From a bacterium (lineage in GTDB: Bacteria > SZUA-79 > Acidulodesulfobacterales > Acidulodesulfobacteraceae): a stretch of 43,480 bases of DNA. Both the position numbers and the translations under genes were made by a program. The stretch spans positions 1 through 43,480 of the forward strand of contig JAJYQS010000006.1 in the NCBI GenBank assembly GCA_021794475.1, given 5' to 3'. The notes beneath the pieces are model-generated. The model did no database searches, had not been told where the DNA came from, and worked only from the letters and a program-made list of their open reading frames with translations. Of the stretch, positions 32,600 to 43,480 are shown in pieces (within the stretch, counting starts at the first letter, position 1; each line of letters opens with the position of its first letter).

Positions 32600-35500
32600 A
32601 TGAAACTTAAATATATTGAACTGCAGGGATTTAAAACTTTTCCGGATAAAGCTAAAATACAGTTTGACGAAAAGATTAGCGTCATTGTGGGGCCTAACGG
32701 CTGCGGCAAGAGCAATATCGTTGATGCTGTCAGGTTTATCGCAGGTGAGCAAAATTTGAAAGAATTGCGGCTTAAGAATATGAACGAACTTGTATTTAAC
32801 GGTTCGGCTTCAAAATCAAAAAAAGCATCTACTGTAGCAGTTGCAAAAGGGGTATTTTTGAACGATGGCGAAATTGATTTCAGATATAAAGATTTTCCGG
32901 AAATTGCAGCGGAAAGAAGGCATTATAAAGACGGAGAAAGCGAATATAGGCTGAACGGCATTATTGTGCCATACAGAGAGTATGTCAATTTTTTTATTGA
33001 AAGCGGAATATCATTCAAATTTTATTCTATTCTAGACCCTCTAAAGATAAGTTCTATATTAAATTATAAACCTGAAGAGATGAGGCTGCTCTTTGAGGAG
33101 GCATCAGGAGTTATAAAATTTAAGAACCAGAAAAAAATTGCATTAAGAAAATTAGAGAATACAAATGCAAATTTAGCTCGGATTCAAGATATTTACAATG
33201 AGGTTGAAAAACAAGAAAAGGCTTTAAAGACGCAATCAGATGAACTGGAAAGGTTTAAGAAAATAAGCGAAGAAAAAAGATATTGCGAATTTATTTTATA
33301 TGACAGGGCGAGAAGTAAGGCAATTTCATCTATAGATGAAAATAATAAGGCTGTCGAAAAATTTAATGCCGGTATTCAAAATCTTGATAGTCAATTAATT
33401 TTAAACGAAAATTTAATAATAAAAGAAAAAACCTATTTCAATGAGCTTAATGAAAAATTTAAACTGCAGACCGATAGTAAAAATAAGCTTATTATAGAAA
33501 TATCCGGAATAAATTCTGATATAAAGCATGCCGAAGAAAAATTAGCAATGTTAAACGCAGAAAAAATAAAGAAAGGCAATGAATTAAAGGAAAGTGAAAC
33601 TTTTAAAAGCAGAAATATTTTAAAATTAGAAGATTTAAAACATAAAAAAGAAGAATCCGAATCGGCATTTAAAAAAAATCAAGAAGCGGCTTCATCTATA
33701 AACAATGAAATAAAACAAAAGAAAAAATATACGGAAGAAATAAAAAATGAGATTGAAATACTGAACGATGATATTTTAAAGACCGTTGAGCGTTCCCAGA
33801 TGCTGAATAATAGAATAGCATTTAACCAAAAAAATATTGCGGCTTATTCTTCGAGAATTTCAAATTCAGAACAGCTGATAAATAAGGTTATGCAAGAAAT
33901 AACCGGCGACGAGGATTTGTTTAATTCAAAAAATAATCTAGCAAATAGTATAGCATATACTTTAAATGAATTAGAAAGCAAATTAAAGTTAAAAAATGAA
34001 GAATTGGGCATAGTCGTCAAACAAGCAGAAGAATTAAGATTAGTGCACGGTAAATACGAAAAAGAATTGATAGGATTAAAATCGCATGAATCAAGATTAT
34101 TGGAGTTTTTAGAACAGCATGAAGGTTTTTCAGAGGGTTCAAAAAAACTTTTAGACAAATCAGACAAATTTAATATATTGGGAAGTTTAGGCGATATTTT
34201 AGAAGTTTCAGACGGATATGAAAAAATAATATGGGAAGCGGCAGGGGATAAATTAGAAACAATATTAATTACAGATATTGAAGATGCAAAAAATGCGGCA
34301 GCATATTTAAATTTAAACGACTCCGGAGCAGCTAAATTATATGTCTTAGGCAATGCCGTCAATAATAATAAATTTGCTGGCATTAACAGCTGCAATGACG
34401 TTCGTTGCCATGCGGAAGGCGAAGGATGTGAAATTAAAGATTTAGAAATTAAAGGTTTGATAAATGACTTAAAACTGCTGCCGCTAAAAGATAAAATTAA
34501 AATAAATTTTATTGAGAAACGTAATGACAATATAAGCAATAACAACAATAGTAACAGCGAAAGCAATACGGCAGCTGCGGAAAATAAAGACAATAGAAAT
34601 AACAATGATAATAAAAATAAGAAAAATGAAGACGATGCCGGATTTGATTCAATATTTAACAATACCATAATTGAAAAGTTAGCCGTCGATTTTTATTACA
34701 CAGAGAATACCGATTTAGTGTTTGATTATATAAAAAATAAAGGTTGTTTTCCAGAAATTAATATTGTTTCGCACGACGGGACTATCTTTTTATCATCCGG
34801 TTTTATTAAGGCGGGGAAGGATAAAAAAACTGAAAACGAAAATATTTTATTAAATAAAAATAAATTAGCTCAATTAAAAGCAAATATTTCCGCAGCGGAA
34901 TATGTTCTTAATCAAAAGACATCCGAAATTTTAATTAAAGAAAAGAGCATAAAAGAAATAAATAAAGAGACGGAAAACATTAAAGCCGCCGTTCAGTCTA
35001 ATAAAATCCTGAAGATAACTGAAGAAAACGATATAAAACATATAAATGGACGTATCATTAAATCCAAAGAAAGATTAAATATTCTTAAAAAAGAACTGGA
35101 AAATATAAAAGCAGATAAAAATAAGCTTGAAGATGAAACTGAGCAATCCCGGCATGAGTTGGAAAACTTAGAAATAATTTTATTCGAGCAGAATATACAA
35201 AAAAAGGAACTTGACAAAAAATTAATAGCTTATGAAGACGAATATGAGGAAATAAAAGAACAAGAGGTAAAATTAAGGATTAAATTGTCGTCGTCCGAAA
35301 ATAATCTGCTATACCTTGATAAAGAAATAAAAAATATTAAATCAGGTATTAAAAGTGGAATTTTCAGGTATAATAAGATAAAAAACGAAATAGATGAGTT
35401 AGATAAAACTGCCGAAACAATTAAAAAAAACATTTTTGTTAAAAAAAATAAGATTGACGAACTTAATATAAAATTAATTAAAATTAGCGATGATATCAAA

Positions 35501-36466
35501 CAGCTTGATTCCTATTTAGAAAAAATAAAAATTACTATTGAAGAAAAAAATTTAATTTCAGAAAAATTAAGACGTGAAAAAAATGATACTGAAAAGAAAA
35601 GAGAAAATTCGTTAACATATATTCAAATGTTTGAAGAAAAACTCAATGAACTGAATGTTTACGGTTTTACAGACGAGGAAACCGAAAAATATATTGTTCA
35701 ATTTAAAGAAACAGGCGATAAATTTTGCGATATCAATGATTCTGAGCTTAAAAAAACTATTATTAAACTTAAAAATGAAATAGACGGCGCAGGTAATATT
35801 AATATGAACGCATCTGAAGAGTATACAGAGGTATTAAACAGACTTAGCTTCTTATCGTCGCAAAATAATGATTTAAATGAATCAATAAAATCATTAGAAG
35901 ATATAATAAAAAAATTAGATACTGTTTCAAGAGAAAAATTTAATTCTGATATGACTAAATTTAAAGAAAAATTTAATGAACTTTTTAATTATCTATTTGG
36001 CGGAGGTCATACCGATATCGTAAGTGTAAGGCATAAAAGTTCGCCTGCCGCAGGCAATATGGACGGCGAACACCTTTTATCGGACAATATCGCGTCATAT
36101 TCCGATATAAACGGCGGCAGTGCGGCAGATGTTGCAGGGATAGAAATAAATGTGCAGATACCGGGGAAGAAATTATCAGGGCTTAACCTTCTGTCGCAGG
36201 GTGAAAAAGTACTAGTTACGGTTAGCCTTATTTTTGCTATTTTTCTGGTAAAGAAAAGTCCGTTTTGTGTTATAGATGAAGTTGACGCACCGTTAGACGA
36301 TGCAAATAATGCCAGATTTAATAAATTGATAAAAGAAGTTTCTAATTCATCGCAGATTATTATTGTTACGCACAATAAAAAAACTATGGAAATAGGCAAT
36401 TATATTTTTGGAATTACGGCTAAAGAACCCGGCATTTCCAAAGTTGTTTCCGTAACTATTAATTAA
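32600..36466 (+). CDS. smc: Chromosome segregation ATPase SMC
   Basis: SMC dimerises and with ScpAB organises the chromosome. The 1288-residue protein is longer than the usual ~1180. The N-terminal head has the Walker A GPNGCGKSN (about 31-39) and the EEASGVIKFKNQKK region; two long coiled coils flank a hinge at about 524-760 (FNILGSLGDILEV to SHDGTIFLSSGF). The C-terminal head has the signature LLSQGEKVL and Walker B FCVIDEVDAPLDDAN. The signature differs from the common LSGGE by Gly to Gln. An Asn/Asp/Lys-rich insert of about 38 residues (642-679) lies in the hinge. ScpA and ScpB are not in the window. Confidence 0.96.
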   Translation: MKLKYIELQGFKTFPDKAKIQFDEKISVIVGPNGCGKSNIVDAVRFIAGEQNLKELRLKNMNELVFNGSASKSKKASTVAVAKGVFLNDGEIDFRYKDFPEIAAERRHYKDGESEYRLNGIIVPYREYVNFFIESGISFKFYSILDPLKISSILNYKPEEMRLLFEEASGVIKFKNQKKIALRKLENTNANLARIQDIYNEVEKQEKALKTQSDELERFKKISEEKRYCEFILYDRARSKAISSIDENNKAVEKFNAGIQNLDSQLILNENLIIKEKTYFNELNEKFKLQTDSKNKLIIEISGINSDIKHAEEKLAMLNAEKIKKGNELKESETFKSRNILKLEDLKHKKEESESAFKKNQEAASSINNEIKQKKKYTEEIKNEIEILNDDILKTVERSQMLNNRIAFNQKNIAAYSSRISNSEQLINKVMQEITGDEDLFNSKNNLANSIAYTLNELESKLKLKNEELGIVVKQAEELRLVHGKYEKELIGLKSHESRLLEFLEQHEGFSEGSKKLLDKSDKFNILGSLGDILEVSDGYEKIIWEAAGDKLETILITDIEDAKNAAAYLNLNDSGAAKLYVLGNAVNNNKFAGINSCNDVRCHAEGEGCEIKDLEIKGLINDLKLLPLKDKIKINFIEKRNDNISNNNNSNSESNTAAAENKDNRNNNDNKNKKNEDDAGFDSIFNNTIIEKLAVDFYYTENTDLVFDYIKNKGCFPEINIVSHDGTIFLSSGFIKAGKDKKTENENILLNKNKLAQLKANISAAEYVLNQKTSEILIKEKSIKEINKETENIKAAVQSNKILKITEENDIKHINGRIIKSKERLNILKKELENIKADKNKLEDETEQSRHELENLEIILFEQNIQKKELDKKLIAYEDEYEEIKEQEVKLRIKLSSSENNLLYLDKEIKNIKSGIKSGIFRYNKIKNEIDELDKTAETIKKNIFVKKNKIDELNIKLIKISDDIKQLDSYLEKIKITIEEKNLISEKLRREKNDTEKKRENSLTYIQMFEEKLNELNVYGFTDEETEKYIVQFKETGDKFCDINDSELKKTIIKLKNEIDGAGNINMNASEEYTEVLNRLSFLSSQNNDLNESIKSLEDIIKKLDTVSREKFNSDMTKFKEKFNELFNYLFGGGHTDIVSVRHKSSPAAGNMDGEHLLSDNIASYSDINGGSAADVAGIEINVQIPGKKLSGLNLLSQGEKVLVTVSLIFAIFLVKKSPFCVIDEVDAPLDDANNARFNKLIKEVSNSSQIIIVTHNKKTMEIGNYIFGITAKEPGISKVVSVTIN
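34523..34636 (+). repeat. Low-complexity Asn-rich insert within smc
   Basis: This stretch encodes residues about 642-679 of SMC, made almost only of N, S, K, E, D and a few A/T, largely through AAT, AAC, GAT and AAA codons. The reading frame stays open throughout. It sits in the hinge region between recognisable hinge strands, so it is probably a disordered loop. It looks like an expansion by slippage. Confidence 0.75.
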
Positions 36467-40370: not shown

Positions 40371-40424
40371 ATAAGCTATTTGTTAATTTTATATTCAGAT
40401 TTTATACTCAGGTTAAATAATATT

Positions 40425-41342
40425 TTGAAAGCTTTTTTAAACAGAGAACAGGTATTTATTAAATTACGTTTAATATCTTATATAGGTATTGCCGTAAACG
40501 TTGTTCTAACAGTATTAAAATTTATTGTTGGAATAACGGGACAATCGGAAGCTCTTGTCGCAGATGGGTTTAATTCTCTTGCGGACATTTTTGCCGGTTT
40601 TGTTGTCTATATATCTTTCAAAATTTCAAAAAAACCGCAGGATAAGGAACATCCATACGGTCATGCAAAAGCTGAAATGATTGCCACTTTTATAGTAGCG
40701 TTAATCTTATTCGGTTTTGGTTTTTTTGTCGTTGCCATATCTGCATTAAAGTTATATTACGGTATTTCAGAAAAACCCGCTATTGATACGTTATTTGTTG
40801 CGCTGGCAACTATTATTATAAAAGAGATACTTTATTTATGGACGTTAAAATGGGGTCATTTACTTAAATCAACAGGGCTTATCGCAACTGCCTATGACCA
40901 CAAAAGCGATGTAATGGCATCTGCCGCAGTTGTAATAGGTATAGTGTCGGCAAGGCTGGGCTATACCTTTATGGACCCTCTTGCAGGTTTAATAGTGAGT
41001 GTATTTATTTTCAGACTGGCTATAAAATTAATTAAAGAATCTGTCGGCAATCTTATGGATGAAAGTCCCCCCGCTTCGGTTGTCGCAAGAATCCGAAAAG
41101 TTATAAAAAACATTAAAGGAATAGAAGACATAACAGATCTCAGGGTAAGAAAATCCGGCCCGTATATATATGTTGACGTCAATATAGAGGTCGATTCTTC
41201 GTTAACCGTAAAAATGGCGCATGATATTGCAGAAACGGCAAAAGATGAACTTATTATGTCAAATCCTTATATAAATGATGTCATGGTTCATATTAATCCT
41301 TACGACAAAAATAAATATAGCCGTAAATTTTTAAAAATATAA
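40425..41342 (+). CDS. Cation diffusion facilitator, predicted Mn2+ exporter (MntE-like)
   Basis: CDF proteins export divalent metals in exchange for protons as dimers. The protein has about six membrane helices and a C-terminal cytosolic domain. The metal site is N50-x3-D54 in TM2 (NSLAD) and D158-x3-D162 in TM5 (DHKSD). In the family, Zn transporters have HxxxD/HxxxD and YiiP has DxxxD/HxxxD, whereas N-D-D-D is typical of bacterial Mn exporters (MntE), so Mn2+ is the best guess. The open frame extends to TTG 40380, but TTG 40425 (MKAFLNREQVF) fits the promoter better; no ATG is available. It is divergent from an orphan response regulator. Confidence 0.85.
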   Translation: MKAFLNREQVFIKLRLISYIGIAVNVVLTVLKFIVGITGQSEALVADGFNSLADIFAGFVVYISFKISKKPQDKEHPYGHAKAEMIATFIVALILFGFGFFVVAISALKLYYGISEKPAIDTLFVALATIIIKEILYLWTLKWGHLLKSTGLIATAYDHKSDVMASAAVVIGIVSARLGYTFMDPLAGLIVSVFIFRLAIKLIKESVGNLMDESPPASVVARIRKVIKNIKGIEDITDLRVRKSGPYIYVDVNIEVDSSLTVKMAHDIAETAKDELIMSNPYINDVMVHINPYDKNKYSRKFLKI

Positions 41343-41360: not shown

Positions 41361-41385
41361 ATGATAAAAATCATATTTTATTTAT
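41361..41385 (+). terminator. Weak terminator-like hairpin after the exporter gene
   Basis: ATGAT-AAAA-ATCAT (41361-41374) is a 5-base stem followed by ATTTTATTTAT, 18 bases after the stop. The short stem makes it a weak candidate. The rest of this 176-base gap is AT-rich with no clear promoter boxes, but a strong AAAGGAGAGG ribosome binding site ends it. Confidence 0.3.
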
Positions 41386-41518
41386 TAAAGTTGTTTTAAC
41401 ATTAAAATAATATGCAAACAATATTAAATATTAATTTAATTTAATAATGATAATTTTGTAGAATCAAAATAGAATATACAATATAATACATATAAAATAA
41501 TAAAGGAGAGGTGTAAAA

Positions 41519-42070
41519 ATGGATATTTATCTTCAAATAAAAAATAAAAGGGGGGAAATGTTCAAGATTGTTAATTTTAGCAGAGAAGAATATTTTTTAT
41601 CCTACAAAGAACATCTTAGAAAAATAATTAATGAGAGCGATTACCCTATTTTTTTTAATGATTTTAGAGCCGGCAATTATATGGACACTAAACAGATTAA
41701 ATTGTTAATTAATGAAGTTAAAAATATTGCAAAAAAACTTGGTAAAGATCTCGAAGACTATAAAACCATGATTGAAAAAAGAAGTCAAATCGAAAATAAT
41801 ATTTTCGATCATTCCTCGATTAAGAATATTATGCTTATAGGAAAAAAAAGATTGAAAGAGGCTGCGGATGAATTTGACGAGCAGGAGCTAAAGGAGCAGC
41901 TTGATTATATAGATGAAAATATTAAAAAACTTAATGAAGCAGAAGAATATTTAAACATTGAAAGAGGGAAATTAAAATTTTTATTTGATATAGAACTTTT
42001 ATTTGATACTTTAATGGAAGCTAAAAATTGCTCATCCGGAATTTATCTCAAAACAAGCGGAACAGATTAA
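41519..42070 (+). CDS. Unrecognised protein, mostly helical
   Basis: A 183-residue protein I do not recognise. It has no signal peptide or membrane segment, so it is probably cytoplasmic. Residues about 1-60 look mixed alpha/beta (DIYLQIKNKRGEMFKIVNF) and residues about 65-160 are charged and heptad-like (KLGKDLEDYKTMIEKRSQIE; LKEQLDYIDENIKKLNEAEE), suggesting a coiled coil. It contains a single cysteine near the C terminus. The AAAGGAGAGGTG before the ATG is among the best ribosome binding sites outside the ribosomal genes, so it is probably well expressed. It is convergent with an NtrC-type regulator; the stop codon lies inside the first copy of a direct repeat. Confidence 0.75.
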   Translation: MDIYLQIKNKRGEMFKIVNFSREEYFLSYKEHLRKIINESDYPIFFNDFRAGNYMDTKQIKLLINEVKNIAKKLGKDLEDYKTMIEKRSQIENNIFDHSSIKNIMLIGKKRLKEAADEFDEQELKEQLDYIDENIKKLNEAEEYLNIERGKLKFLFDIELLFDTLMEAKNCSSGIYLKTSGTD

Positions 42071-42157
42071 TTAAGCATAACTTTAAATAAGAAGTCTCGG
42101 GCGTCATCTTATATTTCTTTAATCTGACTTATTAATTAAGCATAACTCTTAAATAAG
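42066..42157 (+). repeat. 26-base direct repeat in the convergent gap
   Basis: The stretch 42066-42091 is repeated at 42131-42157 with one inserted base. Both share the core ATTAATTAAGCATAACT and end in TTAAATAAG. The first copy includes the stop codon of the upstream gene. Each copy also has a small internal dyad (TTAAG-N7-CTTAA in the second). The spacer of 39 bases holds no hairpin with a U-tract. Confidence 0.75.
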
Positions 42158-42188: not shown

Positions 42189-43480
42189 TCAAATAATTTT
42201 TTTTGAAATGTTAAATTCTTTTATTTTTTTTCTTAACGTATTTCTATTTATACCTAGTAGGTTAGAAGCTTTTATCTGGTTATTTTTTGATAAAATAAGA
42301 ATTTCTTCTATAACTATTTTTTCTGTCGTTCCTATTATTGTTTTATAAACATCAGTTAAATTTGTGTCTTTAATTTTTTCAAGATAATTTTTTATCCTTT
42401 GTCTTATTATATCTTCGAATGGGGTAGAATCATTATTTCTTTTATCAGAAAGTTTTAAATTGTTTATGTTTTCAGGGTTAATGATATCATAGAAATCTTC
42501 AGGCGTAAGCGTTGAATGGTGAGACATAATCATTGTCCTTCTTATCGCGTTTTCCAGTTCCCTGATATTGCCCGGAAAATTATGAGATTGTAAAAAAGAA
42601 AGGGATTCTTCATTTAATTGTTTGCCTGAGATGCCTAATTCTTTTGCAAATTTTTCTATAAAAAAATTTGCAAGAACCGGAATATCTGATTTTCTGTCTC
42701 TCAGAGGAGGAAGAGTAATTTCTATAACATTAAGTCTGTAATACAAATCTTCCCGAAATTTAGATTCTTTTATCATTGATTTCAGGTTTCTGTTGGTTGC
42801 CGCGATAATTCTCACATCTATTTTAATTGATTTATTTGAGCCGACGGGTTCTACTTCTTTTTCCTGGATTACTCTTAATAATTTTGCCTGTAGGTCAAGA
42901 GGCATATCGCCTATTTCATCAAGAAAAATTGTACCGCCGTTTGCCTGCAGGAATTTTCCTTCCCTTTTTTCATTTGCGCCTGTAAATGACCCTTTTTCAT
43001 GGCCAAAAAGTTCGGATTCTAACAAATCAAAAGGAACTGAAGGAGTATTGACTACTATAAACGGTTTTTTATTGCGCAAACTATTTAGATGTATTGCCCT
43101 TGCGACTAATTCTTTCCCCGTGCCTGATTCTCCGAGAATCAAAACAGTCAAGCTGTTATGTGATAATTTTCCTATAGTTTTAAATATTTCTTGCATTACC
43201 TTAGATTTTCCGACTAATAGAGAATCAAGAATATCAATATTTTTTACATTAGTATTGTTTTGCGGCAATGCATCTATTTCATCTTTTCTTATTTTTTTGA
43301 TTATTCCTACTATTTCTTCCACGTCGAACGGTTTAGTTATATAATCGTAGGCCCCTTTTTTCATAGCATCTATGGCATTTATCATAGTATTTTGAGCGGT
43401 CATTATTATAACGTTAGGGGGATTCGCAAGTTCTCTTGAATAAGATAATATCTCCATACCGTTAATCTTAGGTATTCTTA
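42189..43480 (-). CDS. NtrC-family sigma-54-dependent response regulator (partial)
   Basis: The gene runs off the right edge on the minus strand: the frame stays open upstream of the ATG at 43457 and reads RIPKING, so the N-terminal half of the receiver domain lies outside. What remains is the end of the receiver (VIIMTAQ, then KKGAYDYITKPFD with the conserved Lys), a full AAA+ domain (Walker A GESGTGKELVARAIH, GSFTGA loop, Walker B GTIFLDEIGDMP, RFREDLYYRLNV-like FREDLYYRLNVIEI), and a Fis-type HTH at the end (SNLLGINRNTLRKKIKEF). It should activate sigma-54 promoters. The sigma-54 contact loop reads GSFTGA rather than GAFTGA. No partner kinase is visible. Confidence 0.95.
   Translation of the reverse strand, partial: RIPKINGMEILSYSRELANPPNVIIMTAQNTMINAIDAMKKGAYDYITKPFDVEEIVGIIKKIRKDEIDALPQNNTNVKNIDILDSLLVGKSKVMQEIFKTIGKLSHNSLTVLILGESGTGKELVARAIHLNSLRNKKPFIVVNTPSVPFDLLESELFGHEKGSFTGANEKREGKFLQANGGTIFLDEIGDMPLDLQAKLLRVIQEKEVEPVGSNKSIKIDVRIIAATNRNLKSMIKESKFREDLYYRLNVIEITLPPLRDRKSDIPVLANFFIEKFAKELGISGKQLNEESLSFLQSHNFPGNIRELENAIRRTMIMSHHSTLTPEDFYDIINPENINNLKLSDKRNNDSTPFEDIIRQRIKNYLEKIKDTNLTDVYKTIIGTTEKIVIEEILILSKNNQIKASNLLGINRNTLRKKIKEFNISKKII

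Follow-up and report, generated by a model that had tools for sequence, protein, structure and literature searches.

Between the gene for a metal exporter and that for an NtrC-type regulator, close to one end of a stretch of bacterial DNA of 43,480 nucleotides (the window, by which we mean this whole stretch), lies an open reading frame for a protein of 183 residues that the original prediction had left without a family. What kind of protein is this, and in what process would the bacterium use it? The reading frame, its strong ribosome binding site and its placement were all predicted correctly: the frame has the expected extent on the forward strand with an ATG start, the Shine-Dalgarno stretch is present, and the neighbours are a CDF exporter and a convergent NtrC-type gene (Table 1). 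We refer to the gene as c1.

Table 1. Features of the c1 locus and of related insertion-prone stretches
Feature	Position	Strand	Remarks
CDF cation exporter (Cation_efflux + ZT_dimer)	40413..41342	+	Upstream neighbour; PF01545 and PF16916
FNR/HcpR/DNR-like operator TGATAAAAATCA, putative	41362..41373	+	Predicted centre at -41.5
Predicted -10 hexamer TAACAT	41397..41402	+	TAATAT in G002-G005, TAGTAT in G006, TATAAT in two other genera
Shine-Dalgarno stretch AAGGAGAGGTG	41503..41513	+	Similar stretches in g1 and g4; absent from five members of g6
c1, 183-aa orphan protein	41519..42070	+	ATG start; open reading frame, homologues and model
Head of c1	residues 2-73 and C-terminal strand 174-179
Coiled-coil hairpin of c1	residues 78-151
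NtrC-type sigma-54 regulator	42189..43478	-	Convergent neighbour; truncated at the end of the window
Insertion-prone stretch, locus L031	8463-11256		Labels by eye
Insertion-prone stretch, locus L034	5222-7165		Labels by eye
Insertion-prone stretch, locus L035	242-5192		Labels by eye

A conserved gene without a recognisable family

That c1 is a real gene and no chance open reading frame is clear from its conservation. A profile search of 30 genomes of the phylum finds 17 intact copies, and dN/dS lies between 0.07 and 0.22 (n = 10 pairs), indicating purifying selection, although in most pairs the value is somewhat higher than for the CDF and NtrC-type neighbours. The window's own genome holds a single copy; G020 has a second, partial one at a contig edge, and G022 carries a decayed copy that has also lost the -10 hexamer at the right place. 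A weak profile match in G008 (E 0.01) was rejected as a chance resemblance; by eye, it falls within the coiled coil of an MreC-like protein whose gene neighbours an MreB-like one.

The Shine-Dalgarno stretch had been taken as a sign of real expression, an argument that holds for two genera and fails for part of a third. A similar stretch is found in the window's genus (in an alignment of six members, weaker in G006) and in the upstream alignment of genus g4, but five members of genus g6 (G020, G021, G024, G027 and G029) lack it, their -10 hexamer lying only 5-10 bases before the ATG and therefore leaving no space for it; in these five relatives the message seems to be leaderless or nearly so. 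Unlike the Shine-Dalgarno stretch, an FNR-like box and the -10 hexamer are kept in all three genera, g1, g4 and g6.

The claim that the protein belongs to no assignable family agrees with our searches, in which c1 and all 18 aligned rows drew from Pfam, NCBIfam, PHROGs and PADLOC only scattered weak matches, none of them over the given curated cut-offs. Because no such cut-off is reached, the clear profile match that would contradict the claim is absent from Pfam, NCBIfam and PHROGs. Among the weak PHROG matches, that to phrog_35159, a model of 50 positions and unknown function, extends to 13 of the 18 rows with a best value of 0.0062, and we treat it as a lead only. A PDB sequence search with the c1 profile gave a best E of 0.33.

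Several other features of the window deserve mention. Just 3' of c1 (42070-42157), inspection by eye shows two copies of a short AT-rich sequence (attaagcataact...taaataag), and at 32600-36466 there is an SMC-like protein whose middle holds a long stretch of low complexity rich in Asn, Asp and Lys. Rfam gave no match in the window at gathering scores.

A conserved head on a coiled coil

The AlphaFold model of full-length c1 (mean pLDDT 90.9) fits what had been read from the sequence, an alpha/beta beginning followed by an extended helical part. Two strands (residues 2-8 and 14-22) and three helices (23-36, 43-48 and 57-73) are followed by a helical hairpin (78-114/121-151), a further helix (158-171) and a last strand (174-179), and in the model a conserved head, formed by the N-terminal hairpin and the C-terminal strand, sits atop an antiparallel coiled coil. 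Conservation, computed on 17 of the 18 aligned rows after a fragment was dropped, is high in the N-terminal hairpin (mean top-residue fraction 0.87) and the C-terminal strand (0.88) and lowest at the coil tip (0.58), where the larger indels of the alignment also lie. The alignment contains no invariant His or Cys and c1 has no recognisable cofactor or catalytic motif; with no such motif to go by, any molecular role proposed for c1 is a guess.

The structure search that had been suggested as a check finds that only the coil resembles solved structures. Foldseek gave best E values of 0.021 (PDB) and 0.020 (BFVD), and nearly all of the VIA rows concern the coil. The Rad50 hook region (1l8d; Z 10.1, rmsd 4.7 over 94 residues) and CT398 (4ilo; Z 10.0, rmsd 1.9 over 81) have antiparallel coiled coils like that of c1, but they leave its head unmatched, and the coil arrangement is a common one, tied with many unrelated rows. 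Modelled by itself (residues 1-76, 16 rows), the head adopts a less certain fold (pLDDT 70.1) that matched no structure convincingly, the best VIA Z being 3.0. c1 is probably a small, cytosolic coiled-coil protein.

It is worth considering whether c1 might be a flagellar export chaperone of the FlgN/FliT type. The FlgN-like chaperones of the same phylum are likewise small helical proteins with a conserved C-terminal tail, the helical hairpin and the S-x-x-I-Y-like C-terminal end of c1 resemble them by eye, and FlhA is present in 15 of the 17 genomes with c1, in some as fragments. Even so, this idea is scarcely credible. c1 has a beta hairpin head and lies at a different locus, the FlgN-like genes sitting elsewhere in the genomes, and profile similarity is lacking: comparison of c1 (A1) by hhalign with 10 of the 31 places in the phylum that match FlgN gives E 0.38, and the FliT model matches 1 of the 18 c1 rows at E 0.75. 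Moreover, FlhA also occurs in 6 of 9 genomes without c1, and its co-occurrence with c1 is not significant. A position within a flagellar gene cluster was also considered and discarded, the context being CDF-c1-NtrC. As a separate observation, G018 and G024 each have two full-length FlhA matches, which suggests two flagellar export systems or mixed bins.

A putative class II promoter upstream of c1

In 15 of the 17 intact copies of c1, the sequence TGAY-N4-RTCA lies exactly 23 bases upstream of a -10-like hexamer (14 of these among the shuffle-tested upstream regions, the fifteenth being that of G005, whose short upstream sequence kept it out of that test). The box of G024 has one mismatch, in its last base, which is shared with the decayed copy of G022, and G001, where the gap between the CDF gene and c1 is 45 bp, has no box before c1. 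The box reads TGATAAAAATCA in most of g1, TGATAAAGATCA in G006, TGACAAAAGTCA in g4 and TGATAAAAGTCA in g6, and between g1 and g4 both half-sites differ together. Without the -10 the box is unremarkable in the window, being present in 12 of 100 shuffles, so the case for a promoter rests on spacing and conservation. When each of 17 upstream regions was shuffled 1000 times with its dinucleotides preserved, box, 23-base spacing and -10 were matched together in 0-4 of the shuffles; the copies of c1 are, however, related and not independent samples. Ten genomes that lack an intact c1 had no box with a -10 in the loci retrieved from them.

From the centre of the box to the -10-like hexamer there are 29 bases in 15 of the 17 copies, which would place the centre at -41.5 if transcription starts seven bases after the -10; in G021 and G027 this predicted start is the A of the ATG. 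The position, relative to the -10 and the predicted start, is thus the one at which class II sites of FNR-type activators are centred, according to the available text of PMC7349173. The wider core TTGAY-N4-RTCAA is also found in the c1 operator, with the outer T and A sometimes absent. Together with the genes that share the box and the type of regulator, described below, these features make the predicted regulation strong by the standards of a computation.

Genes that share the operator

A search of the 30 genomes for the box, the spacing and TATAAT gave 66 sites, nine of them at c1, compared with 4 for the reversed pattern. With a looser -10, four members of the genus gave 26 sites (four at c1) against 5 for the reversed pattern, an uneven control in that 4 of its 5 matches fall in G004, where there are 7 real ones. 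We read 50 stretches around the sites (30 and 20, partly the same places), and here target families are named from HMM matches except where said to be by eye, NorC-like meaning a cytochrome c beside NorB. The box that precedes c1 also precedes nitrogen-oxide genes in these genomes, among them NorC-like/NorB, hcp, nosZ and RIC, as well as CBS plus HPP, GcvH and a 140-aa COX1-like protein. By coordinates, a strict box lies just upstream of qNorB in seven of the 10 genomes that have this gene. Other sites precede MurD-like, TrpG-like or ATPase genes or no clear gene, and look like chance matches. The six sites in the window's genome lie before c1, hcp, GcvH with a thioredoxin-like gene, a FeS_assembly_P gene and an unassigned gene pair, with no clear target for the sixth.

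Two of these targets are curious in themselves. The 140-aa protein, a recurrent operator target (L121 3056-3475, L082, L108), is a membrane protein that resembles a small piece of COX1 and falls just under the Pfam cut-off. The gene pair behind an operator in the window's genome (L162 1634-3039; G000 C32) encodes a protein of 308 aa and, by eye, a BadF/BadG-like ATPase, and has no Pfam match.

A candidate regulator and its signal

The phylum has a suitable candidate for a protein that would bind this operator. PF13545 is matched in 28 of the 30 genomes, over the cut-off in 27, including 15 of the 17 with c1; G014 and G027 have no match and G016 has a sub-threshold one. The two genomes with c1 in which the regulator is weak or missing, G016 and G027, are incomplete. 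Of 22 CRP-family proteins that we read, 18 (one of them a 47-aa piece) are of one type with the sequence TAREVVSR and four are of another. A CRP/FNR regulator with an ExxSR helix, which is typical of FNR/DNR proteins, is common in the phylum. The FNR-type cysteine cluster is absent from the 18 TAREVVSR-type sequences, and two Cys in that of G010 probably come from an over-long start.

These features are those of the regulons described by Rodionov et al. (2005; PMC1274295), who give TTGACnnnnGTCAA as the HcpR motif of Geobacter and relatives and TTGATnnnnATCAA as the DNR motif, both in agreement with the phylum operator TGAY-N4-RTCA. According to the available text of that paper, the HcpR/DNR proteins are without the FNR cysteine motif, as is the CRP/FNR regulator here; the operator type is common to those regulons and the c1 box, and their core targets are hcp, nor, nos and a dnrN/RIC-type gene, as in this phylum. 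By contrast, c1 is absent from the target genes named in that text, and the -41.5 position falls outside the comparison.

We therefore consider it fairly probable that c1 belongs, as a gene specific to this lineage, to a nitrosative-stress regulon of the HcpR/DNR type. An HcpR/DNR-type CRP/FNR activator would bind TGAY-N4-RTCA at -41.5 of c1's own promoter, and c1 would be switched on together with Hcp, NO reductase, NosZ and RIC; we infer both that the phylum's regulator binds the operator and that the signal is NO or a related nitrogen species. The same promoter logic might instead respond to lack of oxygen or to the general anaerobic redox state, c1 then being an accessory protein of anaerobic metabolism. 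The class II position used by FNR-type activators (PMC7349173), the resemblance of the DNR motif to the FNR box (PMC1274295) and the box before GcvH and thioredoxin-like genes would suit such a signal. We think it rather unlikely, given that the common regulator has no FNR-type cysteine cluster in 18 sequences and that hcp, norB, nosZ and RIC are nitrogen-oxide genes.

The presence of c1 does not follow that of the enzymes significantly. Hcp occurs in 9 of 17 genomes with c1 and 5 of 9 without (Fisher p 1), qNor in 7 of 17 and 1 of 9 (p 0.19), and either of them in 15 of 17 and 6 of 9 (p 0.30), in tests that ignore kinship and leave out G014, G019, G022 and G026. In AP3, a species of the same order, expression of norB and nosZ has been reported (PMC6776010); c1 is unnamed in the available text of that report.

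Distribution and history of c1

It is informative to examine these observations in light of where c1 is found. A profile search of 31 more distant genomes gave no match, and a contig scan over 84,980 species found 15 c1 loci, all from genomes of the 30-genome phylum set; because it relied on two peptide patterns, the scan may have passed over distant relatives. There are no relatives in viral contigs and no matches at E 0.01 among 50,697 phage and 72,556 plasmid records. As far as searched, the family is confined to one phylum, which is taken to be Ca. Acidulodesulfobacterales.

Neighbourhood conservation had been proposed as a further check. Where the contig permits a view, c1 lies downstream of the CDF exporter with the convergent NtrC-type gene on its opposite side, in some genomes beyond inserted genes, and this order is often found after purM-purN. 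Yet the exporter and NtrC-type genes adjoin without c1 in nine other genomes (G007, G008, G010, G011, G013, G017, G023, G025 and G028), so the neighbourhood by itself tells little. G026 has a CDF fragment with a GGDEF-like gene behind it, and c1 was not found there; no slot was seen in G014 and G019. In one genus, the interval between c1 and the NtrC-type gene is prone to insertions, which by eye include a ribbon-helix-helix/PIN-like pair, chemoreceptor-like genes and a GGDEF-like protein with CxxCH motifs.

A partnership with the NtrC-type regulator was dropped because that gene is present in genomes without c1. It could also be proposed that c1 is an accessory of the neighbouring CDF exporter, for instance as a buffer or delivery protein for the iron or zinc that is freed when NO damages iron-sulfur proteins. 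In 16 of the 17 cases of an intact c1, the gene immediately before it, in the same orientation, is that of the CDF exporter, the exception being G005, where separate contigs carry them, and in G001, with its short gap, the private promoter of c1 is gone. This proposal is improbable in view of the CDF gene's presence in 28 of 30 genomes compared with 17 for intact c1, the nine genomes in which CDF and NtrC-type genes are joined without it, and the lack of an invariant His or Cys.

A four-protein tree of 28 genomes, rooted at its midpoint and with some of its rows partial, has c1 on either side of the root, which makes it likely that c1 is an old gene that has been lost repeatedly. In addition, the c1 of G027 is 92-93% identical to those of G024 and G021, closer than purN (79-80%) or cdf (86%), so exchange between lineages probably occurs too. 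This exchange, the patchy presence of c1 in the phylum and the ribbon-helix-helix/PIN-like and GGDEF-like genes that, by eye, adjoin it in some genomes could be read as signs that c1 is cargo of a variable insertion slot, with a role in defence, as a toxin-antitoxin or in another mobile function. We find this very improbable: c1 is under purifying selection, it is absent from the phage and plasmid records and viral contigs, it is always in the same slot where the contig shows, and the PADLOC matches are weak, the best being to LmuB (4e-05, 7 of 18 rows). LmuB is an SMC-like ATPase; identity with this Lamassu component was rejected, c1 being 183 aa long with no ATPase domain by Pfam.

Implications

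With membership of a nitrosative-stress regulon as the preferred reading, what might c1 do? Tentatively, its conserved head may bind a partner, and c1 may be no enzyme itself but serve as an adaptor, a chaperone or a protective scaffold to some enzyme that is sensitive to stress or to a repair factor. It is a somewhat more doubtful possibility that c1 represents a new family of non-enzymatic nitrosative-stress proteins, adaptors or scaffolds that would protect or repair metal or Fe-S enzymes under NO in acidophiles, with a head fold that is perhaps its own.

What c1 offers is a modest lead, towards a new stress protein and not a new kind of system. Nonetheless, an anonymous open reading frame becomes a testable regulon member in a little-studied, uncultivated acid-mine group, which illustrates how conservation of an operator can give a gene a place that sequence and fold searches could not give it. 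Nitrosative stress may be harsh in iron-rich acid, and c1, if confirmed, would add an unknown player to the defence against NO in that environment.
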